Assembly (NCBI GenBank): GCA_017403955.1
Contig: JAFRDH010000014.1
Span: forward strand, 1-64,000
Length of the DNA stretch: 64,000 nucleotides
Direction: 5' to 3'
From: Mogibacterium sp.
Lineage (GTDB): Bacteria > Bacillota > Clostridia > Peptostreptococcales > Anaerovoracaceae
The position numbers and the translations under genes are program-made. A model generated the notes under the pieces. That model ran no database searches. It was not told where the DNA came from and saw only the letters and a list, made by a program, of their open reading frames with translations. The first letter of the stretch is position 1. Every line of letters begins with the position of its first letter. Positions 33,655-39,509 of the stretch are shown piece by piece.

Positions 33655-34845
33655 TCAATCGCCGTTCACTTTTTTACTCTTTTCCGGCTTCGCTCCATGA
33701 TACTGATAGAACTGTGTTTCGATAGTTCCGTTGTATAATTTGCGTCTGCGGTCAGCTTTTCTTCCGGTCTCTTTGTCGATGAATTTCTCGAGCTCTTTGT
33801 CGGATGTGATCAGGAAGAACGACCAGTTCGGGCAGTCCTTGATTAGTTCCGCGAGATGCCTGTAGATCTGTCTGATCGACTTATCATCCCCTATACGCTT
33901 GCCGTAAGGCAGATTGGAGATCACGACGCCGCGTTCTTCTTTCGAGACACCCTTAGGTATTCCCGCACCAGGCTCCCATTTATTCATGTCCATACAGATG
34001 AAGTCGATATCGTCTGCCACGCCCGCCTCATCTGCATTATCCTTAGCCGCTCTGACCGCTCGCTTGTCTATATCCATAGCGGTGATGCTGAGTTCAGACT
34101 CAAAGTCTGCAGCTTCATATGCAAGTTTCTTCTCTTCTTTCCAGATGTCCTCAGGAATCATTTCCCAGTCTTCGCACGCGAAGTTCCGGCTGAGTCCCGG
34201 GGCTATGTTCCTCGCGATCATCGCAGCCTCGATAGGGATCGTTCCCGAGCCGCAGCACGGATCGACCAGGACTCTGTCCTTACGGTAAAAGCTCAGCTGC
34301 ACAAGCGCAGCTGCGAGCGTCTCTTTGATAGGAGCGGCTACATCGCTGACTCTGTATCCTCTCTTGTGAAGACCTGCTCCGCTGGTATCGATGAGCATCA
34401 GGAAATTGTCCTTGTGCGCTATGAATCTTATTCTGTATTCCGCGCCCGTCTCCGGAAGTCTGTCCATGCAGTAAAACTCCCCGAGCCTTGCGGCTATTGC
34501 TTTATTGACTATGCTCTGACATGCCGGAACACTGTGAAGAACGGATTTGACAGAGCCTCCTGAAACAGGGAATCTGCCGCTGACAGGTATGATATCCTCC
34601 CATGGAATACCTTTGGTCTGCTGGAACAGCTCTTCAAAAGTCGTCGCATGGAACTCTCCCATACGGATGTATACTCTGTCCGCTGTCCTTAGCCACAGAT
34701 TGGATCTGACGGCAGCTCTCTCATCGCCCATGTATGTGACCCTGCCGTCTTCTGTCTTTATTATCTTGTATCCGAGTGCCTCGATCTCGCGGCGTACGAC
34801 TGCTTCAAGGCCGAATGTTGCAGTAGCAACTAATTCCAGTTTCAT
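33655..34845 (-). CDS. THUMP-domain class I RNA methyltransferase (RlmL/YpsC family)
   Basis: A 396-residue SAM-dependent methyltransferase acting on large-subunit rRNA. The N-terminal THUMP domain (about 45-155) binds RNA. The SAM motif I is DPCCGSGTIPIEAA, and the N6/N2-type catalytic motif reads NLPYGKR (variant of NPPY). Bacterial homologues include B. subtilis YpsC and the N-terminal half of E. coli RlmL (m2G2445). GGTGATC is a weak ribosome binding site. The gene follows nrdG by about 40 bp but with a hairpin between. Confidence 0.9.
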   Translation of the reverse strand: MKLELVATATFGLEAVVRREIEALGYKIIKTEDGRVTYMGDERAAVRSNLWLRTADRVYIRMGEFHATTFEELFQQTKGIPWEDIIPVSGRFPVSGGSVKSVLHSVPACQSIVNKAIAARLGEFYCMDRLPETGAEYRIRFIAHKDNFLMLIDTSGAGLHKRGYRVSDVAAPIKETLAAALVQLSFYRKDRVLVDPCCGSGTIPIEAAMIARNIAPGLSRNFACEDWEMIPEDIWKEEKKLAYEAADFESELSITAMDIDKRAVRAAKDNADEAGVADDIDFICMDMNKWEPGAGIPKGVSKEERGVVISNLPYGKRIGDDKSIRQIYRHLAELIKDCPNWSFFLITSDKELEKFIDKETGRKADRRRKLYNGTIETQFYQYHGAKPEKSKKVNGD

Positions 34846-34861
34846 ATTTGATCACCAAATT

Positions 34862-34881
34862 ACCGGGGTAATTGCCCCGGT
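34862..34881. repeat. perfect inverted repeat between nrdG and the methyltransferase gene
   Basis: ACCGGGG (34862-34868) and CCCCGGT (34875-34881) form a 7-bp GC-rich stem with a 6-base loop. On the minus strand it is followed by AATTTGG, not a T run, so it may slow or process the transcript rather than act as a classical terminator. Confidence 0.55.
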
Positions 34882-34886
34882 ATCTA

Positions 34887-35432
34887 TCAGATAACTATAT
34901 CTACATCGAAATCAGATTTGTAAAGTACTACCTTGCCTGACTTCCTTGTCTTCTTCATGTCGATCACGCGCTGGTTCTCTGACCCTCTGTAGATAAGTGT
35001 CAGATTGCGGAGACTCTCTATATACCTGCCGTCAACAAGGATGTCAAGAAGTCCGAGAAGCTCATCCGTCTCAGGATCATGTCTCTTCTTAAGTTCTTCG
35101 AGAGTATATCCGGTATAACTCATCAGAGACATTCCGGATTCTTTGATCTTCTTGCCGAGTTCGAGGAGTGCAGGCACCTGTTCAAACGGTTCTCCGCCCG
35201 AGAAAGTGACTCCGCGAAGATGCGGGTTCGATTTGATCTGAGTAAAGATCTCGTCTATCGTCATTTCCGTGCCGCCGTTGAAATCATGTGACTCAGGATT
35301 ATGGCATCCCGGGCATCTGTGAGGACAGCCCTGTACGAACAGGACATAGCGGAAACCCGGACCGTCTACTATCGATTCGGGCTCGATACCGCATACTCTT
35401 ATTGTTCTGATTGCAGATTGTGTATCACTCAT
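34887..35432 (-). CDS. nrdG: anaerobic ribonucleotide reductase activating protein
   Basis: A 181-residue radical-SAM enzyme that uses a 4Fe-4S cluster and S-adenosylmethionine to create the glycyl radical of class III ribonucleotide reductase. The cluster cysteines are CPHRCPGC, and the SAM-binding GGE motif is FSGGEPFEQ. The ATG at 35432 or a TTG two codons earlier (35438) could be the start; AAGGAAAG fits the TTG better. It is separated from the upstream 55-residue glycyl-radical gene by a terminator-like hairpin, so its level may be lower than that of its substrate. Confidence 0.93.
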   Translation of the reverse strand: MSDTQSAIRTIRVCGIEPESIVDGPGFRYVLFVQGCPHRCPGCHNPESHDFNGGTEMTIDEIFTQIKSNPHLRGVTFSGGEPFEQVPALLELGKKIKESGMSLMSYTGYTLEELKKRHDPETDELLGLLDILVDGRYIESLRNLTLIYRGSENQRVIDMKKTRKSGKVVLYKSDFDVDIVI

Positions 35433-35465
35433 TTCCAATACGCTTTCCTTACATGTTTCATATAC

Positions 35466-35504
35466 AAAAAGAGTCTCGCAACATAACGCGCTGCAAGGCT
35501 CTTC
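35466..35504 (-). terminator. terminator between the glycyl-radical gene and nrdG
   Basis: On the minus strand AAGAG(C)CT-TGCA pairs with TGCG-AG(A)CTCTT around an 11-base loop, and the stem runs into TTTTTG. It could stop most transcripts from the small gene upstream, with nrdG expressed by read-through or from an undetected promoter. Confidence 0.65.
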
Positions 35505-35527
35505 GTATTACGATCTTAGTATCAGGA

Positions 35528-35695
35528 TTAGTTCCTTGTCAGTCCGTGCTTAACTCTGTCTTCAACTTCTGCTCTCTTGCCGTTGTTGAATCTGTCAAGA
35601 GTACCTACGAGATATCCTGTGATTCTTCTGATTCTCTCAAAACCTACGCCTTCTCCGACCTGACCGTTAACGTTCTTTACAACCTTATTGTTCAT
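35528..35695 (-). CDS. stand-alone glycyl-radical domain of class III ribonucleotide reductase (55 aa)
   Basis: A 55-residue protein that matches the extreme C-terminus of ordinary NrdD proteins. It contains the glycyl-radical motif FERIRRITGYLVG with the candidate radical Gly27, followed by LDRFNNGKRAEVEDRVKHG, the usual NrdD tail. The main NrdD encoded upstream lacks this segment. GGAGG lies 9-13 bases before the ATG, a TTCACA-17-TATAAT promoter lies 30-60 bp upstream, and an NrdR-box-like palindrome lies further upstream. The 132-bp gap from nrdD contains stops and a hairpin, so this is not a one-base frameshift. I infer that it docks onto NrdD and carries the radical installed by NrdG, as GrcA does for pyruvate formate-lyase. 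The motif is clear; function as a separate subunit is inference. Confidence 0.88.
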   Translation of the reverse strand: MNNKVVKNVNGQVGEGVGFERIRRITGYLVGTLDRFNNGKRAEVEDRVKHGLTRN

Positions 35696-35725
35696 CTCTC
35701 TTACCTCCGTAATAATTCCGCACTT

Positions 35726-35754
35726 ATTATAGTCTCATTGGCCCTGTTTGTGAA
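35726..35754 (-). promoter_or_regulatory. promoter of the small glycyl-radical gene
   Basis: On the minus strand a -35 TTCACA (35749-35754) and perfect -10 TATAAT (35726-35731) are exactly 17 bases apart, with the transcript start expected about 25 bp before the ATG. It makes the 55-residue gene an independent unit. Confidence 0.75.
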
Positions 35755-35787
35755 GCTAAATCTATGTATGTTGTTGTTTAATTTATC

Positions 35788-35815
35788 CGGGTGACACTCT
35801 ATATTGTGTCACCCG
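35788..35815. promoter_or_regulatory. NrdR-box-like palindrome within a 10-bp inverted repeat
   Basis: ACACTCTATATTGTGT (35794-35809) agrees at 15 of 16 positions with an NrdR box of the form acacWatatattgtgt. It is embedded in a perfect 10-bp inverted repeat CGGGTGACAC/GTGTCACCCG (35788-35797, 35806-35815). A weaker similar sequence starts at 35761, about three helical turns away. It lies 34 bp upstream of the -35 of the small glycyl-radical gene and just after the nrdD stop. The stem is not followed by a T run, so an operator is more likely than a terminator, though it may do both. Confidence 0.6.
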
Positions 35816-35827
35816 TTATTTCTTCAA

Positions 35828-38104
35828 TTAGTGGATGCAGTCGCAAGGTACCGGTACACTTGGGAATTTCATCCTGAGTTCGTTCAGTCTCTCGATCGAA
35901 ACCGGCTCGCCTTCTCTTCTTCCACAGCGTGGGCAGACATCATCGATAACACCTGTGTATCCGCAGACAGGGTCTCTGTCAACAGGGTGGTTGACTGAGC
36001 CGTATCCGATGCCTACCTTCTGCATGTGTCTGATAACAGCCTCGAAAGCTTCAGGGTTCTTGGCTGTGTCTCCGTCGAGCTCTACGTAACTGATGTGGCC
36101 TGCGTTGGTCAGATCATGGTAAGGAGCCTCGATGTCGAGCTTCTCAAACGCACCGATCGGATAGTATACAGGAACATGGAATGAGTTAGTGTAGTAAGCT
36201 CTGTCTGTAACGCCCTCGATCTTGCCGTACTTCTCTCTGTCGATCTTGACGAATCTTCCTGACAGTCCCTCAGCCGGTGTAGCCAGAAGTGTGAAGTTAA
36301 GACCTGTCTCAACGCTCTTCCTGTCGCAGAACTCTCTCATGTGCTTGATGATCTCGAAAGCCTTCTTTCTCGATTCTTCACTTTCGCCGTGATGCTTGCC
36401 TGTAAGAGCCTTCATTGTTTCAGCGAGTCCGATGAATCCGATCGAAAGTGTTCCGTGCTTGAGGATCTCCTCAACGCTGTCATCAGGTCCGAGGTTGTCT
36501 GAATCGATCCAGATGCCCTGTCCCATCAGGAACGGATAGTTGCGGCCCTTCTTGCTGCACTGGATCCTGAATCTGTGCAGGAGCTGTCTTGCTACCATTT
36601 CAAGCATGTTGTCGAGCTTCTTGTAGAAAACGTCAAAGTCTCTGTTCGATTCGATTCCGAGTCTAGGCAGGTTGATCGATGTGAACGAGAGGTTTCCTCT
36701 TCCGCATACTACAGCCTTACTCGGATCATGGCAGTTGGCCATTACTCTTGTACGGCATCCCATGTAAGCTACTTCTGAATTGTAGTCGCCTTCTTTGTAG
36801 AACTTCTTGTTGAATGGTGCGTCAAGGAAGCTGAAGTTCGGGAAGAGTCTCTTTGCGCTGCATCTTACTGCGAGCTTGAAGAGGTCGTAGTTCGGATCTC
36901 CCTCGTTGAAGTTGACGCCCTCTTTGACCTTGAAAATGGATACCGGGAAAATCGGTGTCTCGCCATTACCGAGGCCTGCCTCTGTAGCGAGCAGGAAGTT
37001 CTTGATGACCATGCGGCCTTCAGGTGTTGTATCCGTTCCGAAGTTGACGGAGCTGAATGGCACCTGTGCACCTGCTCTTGAGTTCATGGTGTTGAGGTTG
37101 TGGATAAGAGCCTCCATAGCCTGATAGGTCATCTTGTCAGTTCTTGCCCATGCAGCCTCGCCTGCCTGCTCATTGCATCTGATCAGGACTTCTCTGTCGA
37201 TACCGAATGTGTTGTCTGCCTGATCGAACCACTTACCGAGCTCTTCTCCATATGTCTTGGTGTTGCTGATAGTCGGTGCTGGTGCTTCTGCCTTGATCTT
37301 CTGTGCGATAGCCTTAGCGTCTTCGTACGGGCAGTCGAGCTTGGCAGCGATGATCTCTGTGAGTGCGGAGAAATACTCTTTGATGTATGTTCTTGCAACG
37401 CCCGGAGCCATTGAGTAGTCAAAGTTAGGAACAGACTGTCCGCCGTGCATCTCATTCTGGTTAGCCTGAATAGCTATGCAAGCCAGAGAAGCGTAGCTCA
37501 TGATCGACTGAGGCTCTCTCAGATAACCGTGACCGGTGCAGAAACCGTCCTTGAACAGTTTGATAAGGTCTATCTGGCAGCAGGTCTCTGTAAGCATATA
37601 GAAGTCCTTATCGTGGATGTGGATGTCGCCGTTGATGTGTGCCTTAGCGATATCCTTCGGAAGAACATAATTGTCCACGAAGTACTTAGCACCCTCAGAA
37701 CCATACTTGAGCATTGTTCCCATCGATGTATCTCCATCGATATTGGCATTCTCTCTCTTGATGTCTGCGTCCTTTGAATATGAATATGTGAGTTCGTTAT
37801 AGATATTCATCAGATCAGATTCTGCTTCTCTGATCTTAGCGTGCTCGGCACGATACAGGATGTAAGCCTTGGCAGTTTTCTCATAGTCGTATTTGATGAG
37901 CATCTGCTCTACAATATCCTGGACCTGCTCTACAGTGCATGTCTCGCCATCGAGCTTTTCTATTACTTTCTTAGTCAGATAAGTAAAGTCGATGCTTGTC
38001 ATCTTCTCGCCTTCAACAGCCTTGTTAGCTGCATATATAGCGTTAAAGATCTTAGACTCGTCAAAGGCTACTTCTTTACCGTCTCTTTTGATTATCGTGT
38101 TCAT
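35828..38104 (-). CDS. nrdD: class III (anaerobic) ribonucleoside-triphosphate reductase, catalytic chain lacking the glycyl-radical domain
   Basis: A 758-residue catalytic chain that makes deoxyribonucleotides without oxygen. An ATP-cone (about 1-95, IIKRDGKEVAFDESKI) gives allosteric control. The ten-stranded barrel follows, with the likely thiyl-radical Cys450 in YMGCRTRV. The C-terminal zinc region has Cys714, Cys724 and Cys727 (VCGYTG, CPRCGR), but the first cysteine of the usual CxxC is Asp711; two extra cysteines end the chain (Cys754, Cys756). The sequence stops after CPRCGRREGEPVSIERL and a short tail, without the RxxGY glycyl-radical motif, which is encoded in the separate gene at 35528-35695. 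The promoter carries NrdR-like boxes. Confidence 0.93.
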   Translation of the reverse strand: MNTIIKRDGKEVAFDESKIFNAIYAANKAVEGEKMTSIDFTYLTKKVIEKLDGETCTVEQVQDIVEQMLIKYDYEKTAKAYILYRAEHAKIREAESDLMNIYNELTYSYSKDADIKRENANIDGDTSMGTMLKYGSEGAKYFVDNYVLPKDIAKAHINGDIHIHDKDFYMLTETCCQIDLIKLFKDGFCTGHGYLREPQSIMSYASLACIAIQANQNEMHGGQSVPNFDYSMAPGVARTYIKEYFSALTEIIAAKLDCPYEDAKAIAQKIKAEAPAPTISNTKTYGEELGKWFDQADNTFGIDREVLIRCNEQAGEAAWARTDKMTYQAMEALIHNLNTMNSRAGAQVPFSSVNFGTDTTPEGRMVIKNFLLATEAGLGNGETPIFPVSIFKVKEGVNFNEGDPNYDLFKLAVRCSAKRLFPNFSFLDAPFNKKFYKEGDYNSEVAYMGCRTRVMANCHDPSKAVVCGRGNLSFTSINLPRLGIESNRDFDVFYKKLDNMLEMVARQLLHRFRIQCSKKGRNYPFLMGQGIWIDSDNLGPDDSVEEILKHGTLSIGFIGLAETMKALTGKHHGESEESRKKAFEIIKHMREFCDRKSVETGLNFTLLATPAEGLSGRFVKIDREKYGKIEGVTDRAYYTNSFHVPVYYPIGAFEKLDIEAPYHDLTNAGHISYVELDGDTAKNPEAFEAVIRHMQKVGIGYGSVNHPVDRDPVCGYTGVIDDVCPRCGRREGEPVSIERLNELRMKFPSVPVPCDCIH

Positions 38105-38258
38105 ATCGTGTTCTTCCTTTTCGTTCTCTTTCGTTCTTCTTCGTTCTTTTTGTTAGTTCTTTTCGCGTCTTCTTTTCGCGTCGGATACCGGAGTCTCCCG
38201 GCATCGTCTCATCTCCCTCTCAGCAGTCCGCGCAAAGGCCGGAAGCGCCTTTCGCCGA
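38105..38258 (-). other. nrdD 5' leader with tandem repeats
   Basis: The nrdD transcript should start near 38261, leaving a leader of about 155 nt with no gene. It holds two exact tandem copies of a 13-mer (minus strand GACGCGAAAAGAA; 38157-38169 and 38170-38182) and three tandem 10-mers beginning TCGTTCT on the plus strand (38121-38150). This makes a long purine-rich run on the RNA just before the start codon. A GC-rich segment at about 38185-38258 can form hairpins. No known riboswitch is recognised. Confidence 0.55.
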
Positions 38259-38306
38259 ACACTATATATTGTAGTTACGCGATTATTGCCTGTCAATATG
38301 TTGTTG
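38259..38306 (-). promoter_or_regulatory. nrdD promoter overlapped by two NrdR-like boxes
   Basis: On the minus strand a perfect -35 TTGACA (38291-38296) and -10 TACAAT (38268-38273) are 17 bases apart. One NrdR-like box, ACACTATATATTGTAG (38259-38274), covers the -10; a weaker one, TGTCAATATGTTGTTG (38291-38306), covers the -35. Their starts are 32 bp apart, matching the three-turn spacing known for NrdR box pairs. Repression by NrdR when dATP is high is the expected logic. Confidence 0.8.
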
Positions 38307-38332
38307 TGATTTTTTGTATTTTTCTTTTTTGA

Positions 38333-38348
38333 CCACAATATGTTGTGT
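38333..38348. promoter_or_regulatory. third NrdR-like box upstream of nrdD
   Basis: CCACAATATGTTGTGT agrees at 14 of 16 positions with the NrdR box pattern. It lies 42 bp upstream of the -35 box, about four helical turns. The rest of 38349-38544 shows no gene or recognised element. Confidence 0.5.
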
Positions 38349-38544
38349 TTTGTTCTTTTTGATGTACTTTGTCGTTCCGAACAGATTTCAGCGATTTTTC
38401 CTGTGTATCAGAACAGTCAGATCCGGCTGTTCCGCTCAGAAAAGTTGACGCATAAGATTATACCTGATTTTCTGAAACGCTTGATTTTTTCGGTTTTCTC
38501 AAGAAACGATTTACAGATATCATTATATCGACAACAAAATTCAC

Positions 38545-38572
38545 CCCCTGAGAATCTGTATTTTCTCAGGGG
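38545..38572 (-). terminator. terminator of the arginase gene
   Basis: A perfect 10-bp stem CCCCTGAGAA/TTCTCAGGGG (38545-38554 with 38563-38572) lies 35 bp after the arginase stop. On the minus strand it is followed by GGTGAATTTTG, a weak T-rich tail. Confidence 0.6.
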
Positions 38573-38606
38573 ATGAACGGCTTTTTTCAGATGATTTCCG
38601 GGGGTT

Positions 38607-39509
38607 CTAGTAGACTTTTTTGCCTAGTGCAAGTTGTATCAAGTCTGATGCCATGATTGCGGTCTTGTTCCTTTCATCAAGGATCGGATTGACCTCAACG
38701 AGGTCCATGCTGATCAGTTTGCCCGAATCAGCAATCATTTCGGCAGCCAGAAAAGCTTCTCTCGCTGTGATTCCGTCAGGCACAGGAGTTCCGGTACCCG
38801 GCGCATACTCAGGTGTTATCGCATCTACATCGAAGCTCAGATGAATGCCGACTGTGCCTTGCCCGGCTATCTCTATAGCCTCCTTCATGACAGCGTACAT
38901 TCCCCTGCGGTCTATGTCGGTCATCGAGAAGACATTCATTCCTGCTTCCTTCATTCTTGCGGCTTCAGGTTTGTCGAAATCATGACCTGCTACCTGCACG
39001 CAGTGTGCCGTAGGTACGAAATGTGGTGTCTGTCCGAAATCGACCATGCTGTCAGGTCCCCATCCGCATACAGCTGAATATGGCATCCCATGCATATTGC
39101 CGCTGAGTGTGGATTTTTCATTGTTCCAGTCACCGTGGGCATCGATCCAGATGATTCCTATCTCGCCTTCATTCTCATAATGTTTGGCGACCGCAGAAAC
39201 ACTTCCTGCAGCCACGCTGTGGTCTCCACCGAGAACGATCGGGAAATGCCCTCTTTCAAGAGTTGCCTTGACCGTCTCATACAGATGCTTGTTAGTCGCA
39301 TTGACCTGCTCGAAGTTGATCATGTGCCTCAGGCTCATCCCGTCATCCGGAGGGATGATATCGCCCTTGTCATATACGTTATAACCAAGGGCTCTCAGAT
39401 CCTGCTTGAGTCCGGCATATCTTATAGCCAGTGGCCCCATAGCAACGCCTTTTCTCGCTGCGCCGAAGTCGATTTGCACACCGATAATATCCAGATCCTT
39501 TTTGTTCAT
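38607..39509 (-). CDS. arginase
   Basis: A 300-residue ureohydrolase with the arginase signature, converting arginine to ornithine and urea with two Mn ions. Metal ligands are seen in GGDHS, DAHGDWN and SFDVDAI. The arginase-type motifs KGVAMGPLAIRYAGL at the N-terminus and SGNMHGMP, APGTGTPVPDG and SMDLVEVNP favour arginase over agmatinase. ITPEYAP replaces the commoner DPxxAP. Its promoter and an operator-like palindrome lie directly upstream, and a terminator follows, so it is a single regulated gene. Nitrogen release from arginine is the probable role. Confidence 0.9.
   Translation of the reverse strand: MNKKDLDIIGVQIDFGAARKGVAMGPLAIRYAGLKQDLRALGYNVYDKGDIIPPDDGMSLRHMINFEQVNATNKHLYETVKATLERGHFPIVLGGDHSVAAGSVSAVAKHYENEGEIGIIWIDAHGDWNNEKSTLSGNMHGMPYSAVCGWGPDSMVDFGQTPHFVPTAHCVQVAGHDFDKPEAARMKEAGMNVFSMTDIDRRGMYAVMKEAIEIAGQGTVGIHLSFDVDAITPEYAPGTGTPVPDGITAREAFLAAEMIADSGKLISMDLVEVNPILDERNKTAIMASDLIQLALGKKVY

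Follow-up and report, generated by a model that had tools for sequence, protein, structure and literature searches.

De novo synthesis of DNA requires ribonucleotide reductase, whose class III form is commonly viewed as a single chain that bears its oxygen-labile radical itself. Oxygen cleaves the backbone of such a glycyl-radical protein at the glycine. The subject of this work is a class III reductase locus of Mogibacterium sp., located in a window of 64,000 nucleotides (contig JAFRDH010000014.1 of assembly GCA_017403955.1, positions 1 to 64,000, to which all coordinates refer), in which the radical-glycine motif is encoded by a 55-codon gene of its own beside an nrdD gene that lacks it. Among the closest described systems is the one-chain NrdD with its activase NrdG, as in E. 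coli, phage T4 and Prevotella copri (structure 8p23). According to the accessible part of the P. copri paper (PMC11226230; the other papers are likewise cited from their available text), the radical glycine of that NrdD is Gly711, the radical cysteine Cys416, and the glycyl radical domain spans residues 676-739. The Mogibacterium locus has the same domains, catalytic cysteine, zinc region, radical-loop sequence and operon partner, but its radical loop and C-terminal tail form a separate gene product, the break falling after the zinc site. Its catalytic chain therefore lacks the radical glycine by which an NrdD is ordinarily recognised, yet the chemistry predicted for it is that of an NrdD.

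Small separate radical-loop proteins, some of them virus-borne, have a likeness in GrcA/YfiD and in Y06I of phage T4 (PMC8683613), which replace a lost C-terminus as the 55-residue protein would do here. The enzyme served by GrcA/YfiD and Y06I is pyruvate formate-lyase, which has a loop of its own as long as oxygen has not cut it, whereas the partner here is a loop-less NrdD; in the available text of that 2021 JBC paper, spare parts are shown for pyruvate formate-lyase only and other enzymes are speculated on. NrdJa/NrdJb of Pseudomonas (PMC4520616) likewise make up a reductase from two chains, encoded in one operon and each indispensable in vivo, but that enzyme is of class II and B12-dependent, and NrdJb carries out thiol exchange and is not the radical site; according to the accessible text, dating from 2015, no other split reductase had been found outside viruses. 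Phage nrdD and nrdA genes also occur in pieces (PMC3653736, PMC2988022, PMC12363816), which the available text attributes to introns, inteins, homing endonucleases or unexplained breaks, and a 91-amino-acid (aa) nrdD piece of Jug phages showed no splicing (PMC12363816). In the open literature, subscription journals being mostly outside the scope of that search, we came upon no NrdD of a cellular organism whose radical part forms a chain of its own. An earlier note on this DNA, made by a model from the letters alone, had proposed a two-chain NrdD and was aware of no description of one; this holds for cells within the literature covered, but nrdD genes in pieces were already known from phages. 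Its comparison with GrcA/YfiD was apt, and the data below extend it to unlinked NrdD-type proteins, repeated splits and virus-borne copies.

Three genes follow one another on the minus strand: nrdD (35828-38104), the 55-codon gene (35528-35695) and nrdG (34887-35438). The 758-aa catalytic chain comprises an ATP-cone (residues 3-89), the NrdD core, the NxN flap, Cys450 and the zinc-site cysteines, without the radical glycine of the RxxGY motif; after CPRCGR it ends in a 28-residue C-terminal tail (35831-35914, minus strand, REGEPVSIERLNELRMKFPSVPVPCDCIH region), at the position where one-chain NrdDs run on into the radical loop. The motif is present on the 55-aa chain, where the radical residue would by homology be Gly27 in RRITGYLVG. 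NrdG, 183 aa when listed from a TTG start, matches the radical S-adenosylmethionine activase family TIGR02491 with 156 bits (cut-off 126.1), and an activase gene thus accompanies nrdD. That the separate gene encodes the missing radical end, as the earlier note had read it, was borne out by complementary family matches: of the 562 positions of PF13597, the large chain covers 1-531 (632.8 bits) and the small chain 533-562 (33.2 bits, cut-off 26.2), while in the NCBIfam one-chain model NF005497 (746 positions) they cover 2-711 (1064.2 bits, cut-off 764) and 711-744, respectively. When aligned to the P. copri structure, small-chain residues 19-50 correspond to the radical region and the large chain to the remainder, and Gly27 and Cys450 align with Gly711 and Cys416 by our own counting, the chain indices of 8p23 being the paper's numbers plus 4 for both residues. 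The break falls within the glycyl radical domain of that paper, leaving the large chain with the zinc site and the small chain with the radical loop and the tail. Residues C450, N119 and N121 were invariant among 20 aligned split enzymes, which keep all catalytic-core motifs; by homology to the P. copri enzyme, Cys450 would be the radical cysteine and N119/N121 would belong to the NxN flap. No family dedicated to the small protein was found in Pfam, NCBIfam or PHROGs. Since the host genome encodes one glycyl-radical enzyme of family PF01228, the small protein might be thought to serve that or another such enzyme, for instance pyruvate formate-lyase. We give this almost no credence, because the small protein matches NrdD models and not the pyruvate formate-lyase-type glycyl radical domain PF01228, the PF01228 enzyme has a glycyl domain of its own, and the small gene lies between nrdD and nrdG, behind an operator box for NrdR.

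The whole Mogibacterium genome contains exactly two PF13597 matches, namely the 758-aa and the 55-aa chain. The earlier note had counted a second complete nrdD as an objection to its proposal; neither a second or complete NrdD beyond the split one nor a class I/II large subunit (PF02867) was detected in the host genome (G000, 95.1% complete) or in two genus mates (99% and 97%). In all, PF02867 was searched in 24 genomes that carry either a truncated NrdD or a small gene of this type, and matched in 11 of them; one of the 13 without a match (G005) has a second, complete NrdD. The loop-less NrdD is thus the only reductase found in 12 of the 24 genomes (G000, G082, G135, G174, G375, G329, G151, G194, G372, G393, G350 and G326), two of which, G375 and G329, are single-contig genomes; in G329, about 430 kb separate the gene of the radical protein from nrdD. 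Of all the evidence, these 12 genomes argue most strongly for joint action of the two chains, and the absence of any other loop suggests that it is the small protein which completes the glycyl radical enzyme. Alternatively, the locus could be decaying or accessory, with DNA precursors supplied by another reductase or by salvage, a view to which the incomplete host assembly and the coexistence of truncated NrdDs with class I/II genes in G083, G136 and G077 lend something. However, PF02867 is missing from 3/3 genus genomes, two of them 97-99% complete, the catalytic core is kept in the split enzymes, and strong purifying selection acts on the small gene, with ratios of non-synonymous to synonymous rates (dN/dS) of 0.00-0.06 in nine comparisons of 52 codons (15-21.5 synonymous versus 0-9 non-synonymous differences); we consider decay or dispensability very unlikely. 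The radical position was Gly in 213/213 distinct separate small open reading frames (ORFs), which were gathered by likeness.

When named genomes were scanned, the small protein had 561 confirmed relatives, of which 80 were taken. Among these 80 listed matches, 10 were ends of one-chain NrdDs and 70 were separate short frames, 52 of them with a truncated NrdD directly upstream and 18 without NrdD in the fetched stretch. Altogether, a truncated NrdD with an adjacent separate small gene was observed at at least 60 loci including the window (L058 and L314 being identical in sequence), with gaps of 1-227 nt and in all three relative frames. The search for such pairs that the earlier note had suggested for Clostridia hence succeeded there and beyond: the records are named Mogibacterium, Butyricicoccus, Massiliimalia, Lachnospiraceae, Oscillospiraceae and Peptococcaceae, and further ones stand under Erysipelotrichaceae and other Bacilli, Fibrobacter, Desulfovibrio and Anaerobiospirillum. 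Judged by these sequences, the split appears to recur in many gut bacteria and in phages. The split operon of L045 is from Massiliimalia timonensis. We also noticed a split nrdD with its small gene on a record labelled as a plasmid of Subdoligranulum variabile (L392, OY725842.1).

A sequencing error, which the earlier note had considered, was rejected because the 60 loci share the break in all three relative frames. Another possibility is that the two frames are joined into one chain by read-through, frameshift or RNA splicing, given that they share a reading frame in the window and that intron-split phage nrdD genes are spliced according to the accessible text of PMC12363816. Against this, the 132-nt spacer between nrdD and the small gene holds, in frame, the stop codon of NrdD and five further stops, other loci use all three frames with gaps down to 1 nt, and the partner is unlinked in at least 10 genomes. 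Furthermore, a Shine-Dalgarno-like match precedes 59/60 chosen small-gene starts, a count biased by the starts having been picked partly by it, and Rfam gave no match at E 0.1 or better over 34500-39000. Joining of the frames is accordingly highly improbable in our estimation. The length of the gap and the GGAGG ribosome-binding site of the small gene (35704-35708, minus strand) are as the earlier note had them, and the latter is kept in 11/11 aligned relatives.

We conclude that the locus very probably encodes a class III reductase in which two chains are obligatory and the radical subunit, activated by NrdG, can be exchanged; the two-chain proposal of the earlier note is favoured by a sole NrdD without a loop, by the 60 split loci and by purifying selection. 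In such an enzyme the 758-aa chain would supply the ATP-cone, the allosteric and catalytic sites, Cys450 and the zinc site, and the 55-aa chain would supply the radical-glycine loop and the C-terminal tail, docking where the C-terminus of a one-chain enzyme lies. NrdG would place the radical on Gly27, which would exchange it with Cys450 at each turnover. An oxygen cut would then spoil a 55-aa chain instead of 813 aa in total, and a fresh chain could dock, so that the separate chain may let cells swap the oxygen-sensitive part; the two chains might also be made in unequal amounts, as the earlier note had supposed. Several points weigh against this conclusion. Its support comes from sequence, from which docking, activation, turnover and exchange are deduced; the completeness of G000 is just 95.1%, and most of the genomes are metagenome assemblies; and the loci were picked by likeness to the small protein, so that their numbers give no prevalence or census. 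As to separate control of the small gene, an NrdR box of at least 13/16 lies between the two genes in just 2 of the 42 split loci with a gap of at least 30 nt (the window and L069), no convincing second box of a pair was found before the small gene, and many split gene pairs are so close that they are probably co-transcribed.

With the profile of the small protein, 148 genomes of the host's own family were searched. Matches were found in 75: 32 genomes had both a one-chain end and a separate short frame, 25 a one-chain end alone, and 18 a short frame alone, some of the last being pieces at contig edges and one (G118) a broken gene. Of the unlinked proteins in the 32 genomes with both, nine were read; they are about 92-113 aa long and have a common N-terminal module ahead of the radical loop. 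By eye, a module of about 45-50 residues is common to the radical proteins of L318, L319, L333-L338, L080, L114 and L235. Pfam returned sub-threshold matches alone for those forms of the 90-110-aa proteins that were tested. Encoded beside an intact one-chain NrdD, these unlinked proteins look like putative NrdD spare parts, and their presence in 32/148 family genomes raises the question of whether the 55-aa protein is merely a spare part in the manner of GrcA/YfiD, rescuing oxygen-cut NrdD without being a standing subunit. Extra small copies in split genomes, up to five in G399, point the same way. The Mogibacterium genome, however, has no one-chain NrdD to rescue, its only NrdD being without a radical glycine, and the small chain must therefore be a standing subunit there, perhaps also an exchangeable one; we regard a purely rescuing role as very improbable. 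Among 18 named genomes with an unlinked small gene, 11 have a truncated and 7 a one-chain NrdD. In six of the 11 (G396-G401) a small gene also adjoins nrdD, which makes their unlinked ones extra copies. Five small radical genes were seen in G399 (L049) and four in G398 (L046), each genome with one truncated NrdD, and L043 in G397 sits, by eye, among mobile-looking ORFs.

In some genomes of these sets NrdD stops in or just before the radical motif (G083 ..HFERIPRL, G136 ..GHERIQRLDIR, G077 ..GFERIERILP, G005 ..SEHIKRM..), and each of the four also has an unlinked radical protein of about 100 aa, which such a truncated NrdD would have to use. G083, G136 and G077 also carry class I/II genes and G005 its second complete NrdD; the arrangement therefore need not be essential there. 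The same combination of truncated NrdD and unlinked protein was found in G210, G174, G329, G408, G410 and G412. A phylum sample gave an NRDD match in 102/119 genomes, the main match ending at 531-540 in 7 of them (G000, G151, G194, G256, G223, G210 and G174); G256 and G223 have another NrdD type with a 45-52-aa partner. In G179, G200 and G208, NRDD matches are interrupted by long insertions within open frames of 1042-1209 aa, which suggests inteins.

Additionally, the small gene is carried by viruses. Two virus-contig scans yielded 124 locus rows (L114-L237; some contigs appear twice and a few are poorly framed), of which 111 are separate small frames with no nrdD in the stretch, 6 are separate frames accompanied by nrdD and 7 are one-chain ends; examples are the copies at L196:4998-5132 (region) and L235:4833-5114. 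Its neighbours include an endolysin and a tail-protein-like gene in L196 and an endolysin in L163, while three neighbours in L168 had no PHROG match. Apart from the small gene, no NRDD match was present in 34 of 35 whole virus records, which may be fragments, including the approximately 240-250 kb records G414 and G446; the remaining record, G442, has a truncated nrdD. Some viruses thus seem to bring the radical chain alone, and would depend on the NrdD and NrdG of the host. Near the start of the Mogibacterium window, a relaxase-like ORF (9-1019), an integrase-like ORF (1080-2417) and a tRNA-Ser gene (2489-2576), named by eye, stand together in an arrangement that resembles the end of an integrative element.

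The regulatory sequences of the locus were examined next to those of its relatives. The promoter-like TTCACA-17-TATAAT before the small gene (35726-35754, minus strand), to which the earlier note had drawn attention, is present with 11/12 matching letters and its -10 element is largely kept in relatives, but the 4-kb stretch contains 8 promoter-like sites against 4.4 expected. A second one, TTGACA-17-TACAAT (38268-38296, minus strand), belongs to nrdD. The hairpin noted in the spacer is likewise real (-19.8 kcal/mol, z -6.8); it was rejected as a terminator because a T run is missing on the gene strand and because its palindrome is an NrdR box, ACACAATATAGAGTGT (35794-35809, no strand assigned), which matches 15/16 and forms the centre of the hairpin. 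Two further boxes of 14/16 lie upstream of nrdD (38333-38348 and 38259-38274, also without strand), the latter overlapping the nrdD promoter-like site. With what we take to be the consensus letters of the NrdR box, the 64 kb contained these three sites at 14/16 or better, compared with 0.08 expected from 12 simulated sequences, the best being the one before the small gene. NrdR itself is encoded in the Mogibacterium genome (205.2 bits). According to the available text of PMC12051234, NrdR boxes are 16-bp palindromes, usually paired and 15-16 bp apart. The spacer palindromes of the nearest relatives are weaker (11-12/16 in 7/10), and L036, L041 and L328 score 9-11/16 with no clear palindrome. 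There is thus no support for a general control of the small gene by NrdR; before nrdD, a box of at least 13/16 is present in 23 of the 38 split loci with enough sequence, compared with 2/42 in the spacer, and most split operons are therefore probably driven from the nrdD promoter. Upstream of unlinked long-form genes of the Ruminococcus type, a box of 13-15/16 was found in 7/7 tested (of 10 such loci), and none at the other seven named unlinked loci. Elsewhere the counts were 4/13 in the host's own family, 2/14 in other families and 0/21 on virus contigs, the control probabilities being not small for the weaker boxes.

The distribution of split and one-chain enzymes was then followed on trees built under quick models from NrdD sequences cut before the trait; those shorter than 500 aa and four that were broken or belonged to another type did not enter, and the rows of the two smaller trees were hand-picked. 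In a FastTree tree of 151 rows the split/one-chain label changes 15 times, at least 13 changes being forced by well-supported branches, and in a tree of 69 rows it again changes 15 times, with at least 10 forced, counts that do not separate gain from loss. A single clade of all split rows was rejected (22 versus 18 rows, approximately unbiased test p 2.2e-5), as was a single clade of the operon-type rows alone (17 versus 18 rows, p 1.25e-6). The one-chain row L358 falls among split rows, and the truncations of the host's own family sit inside one-chain groups. These topologies suggest several independent splits of NrdD. The likely origin is that autonomous NrdD-type radical proteins and duplicated ends came first, followed by repeated loss of the NrdD loop. 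The earlier note was right that NrdD ends after the zinc region without RxxGY, but the tail it called unrelated may keep an EGEGV..E[RK] register like that ahead of the radical loop. When 58 tails were compared with the small-chain start, 50 of them shared their best register (mean z of 1.9 relative to shuffles), while the Fibrobacter tails and L315 do not fit; a weak likeness of this kind hints that the large-chain tail could be a degenerate tandem copy of the start of the small chain.

Whether spare-part repair reaches beyond pyruvate formate-lyase, and how a glycine free of the catalytic chain is activated by NrdG, can now be tested, the natural series from one-chain NrdD through one-chain NrdD with a spare and truncated NrdD with an unlinked partner to the split operon providing ready-made constructs. 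Phages, to judge from the copies carried by viruses, may support the reductase of their host with a gene of about 50 codons. On the broader view we are evenly divided: class III reductases may as a whole form a modular and mobile economy of radical subunits, with NrdR-controlled spare parts in cells, genes on phages and mobile elements, and interchangeable, sometimes distant small chains for loop-less NrdDs, in which oxygen damage, dosage and infection would all act through a part of 50-100 residues.

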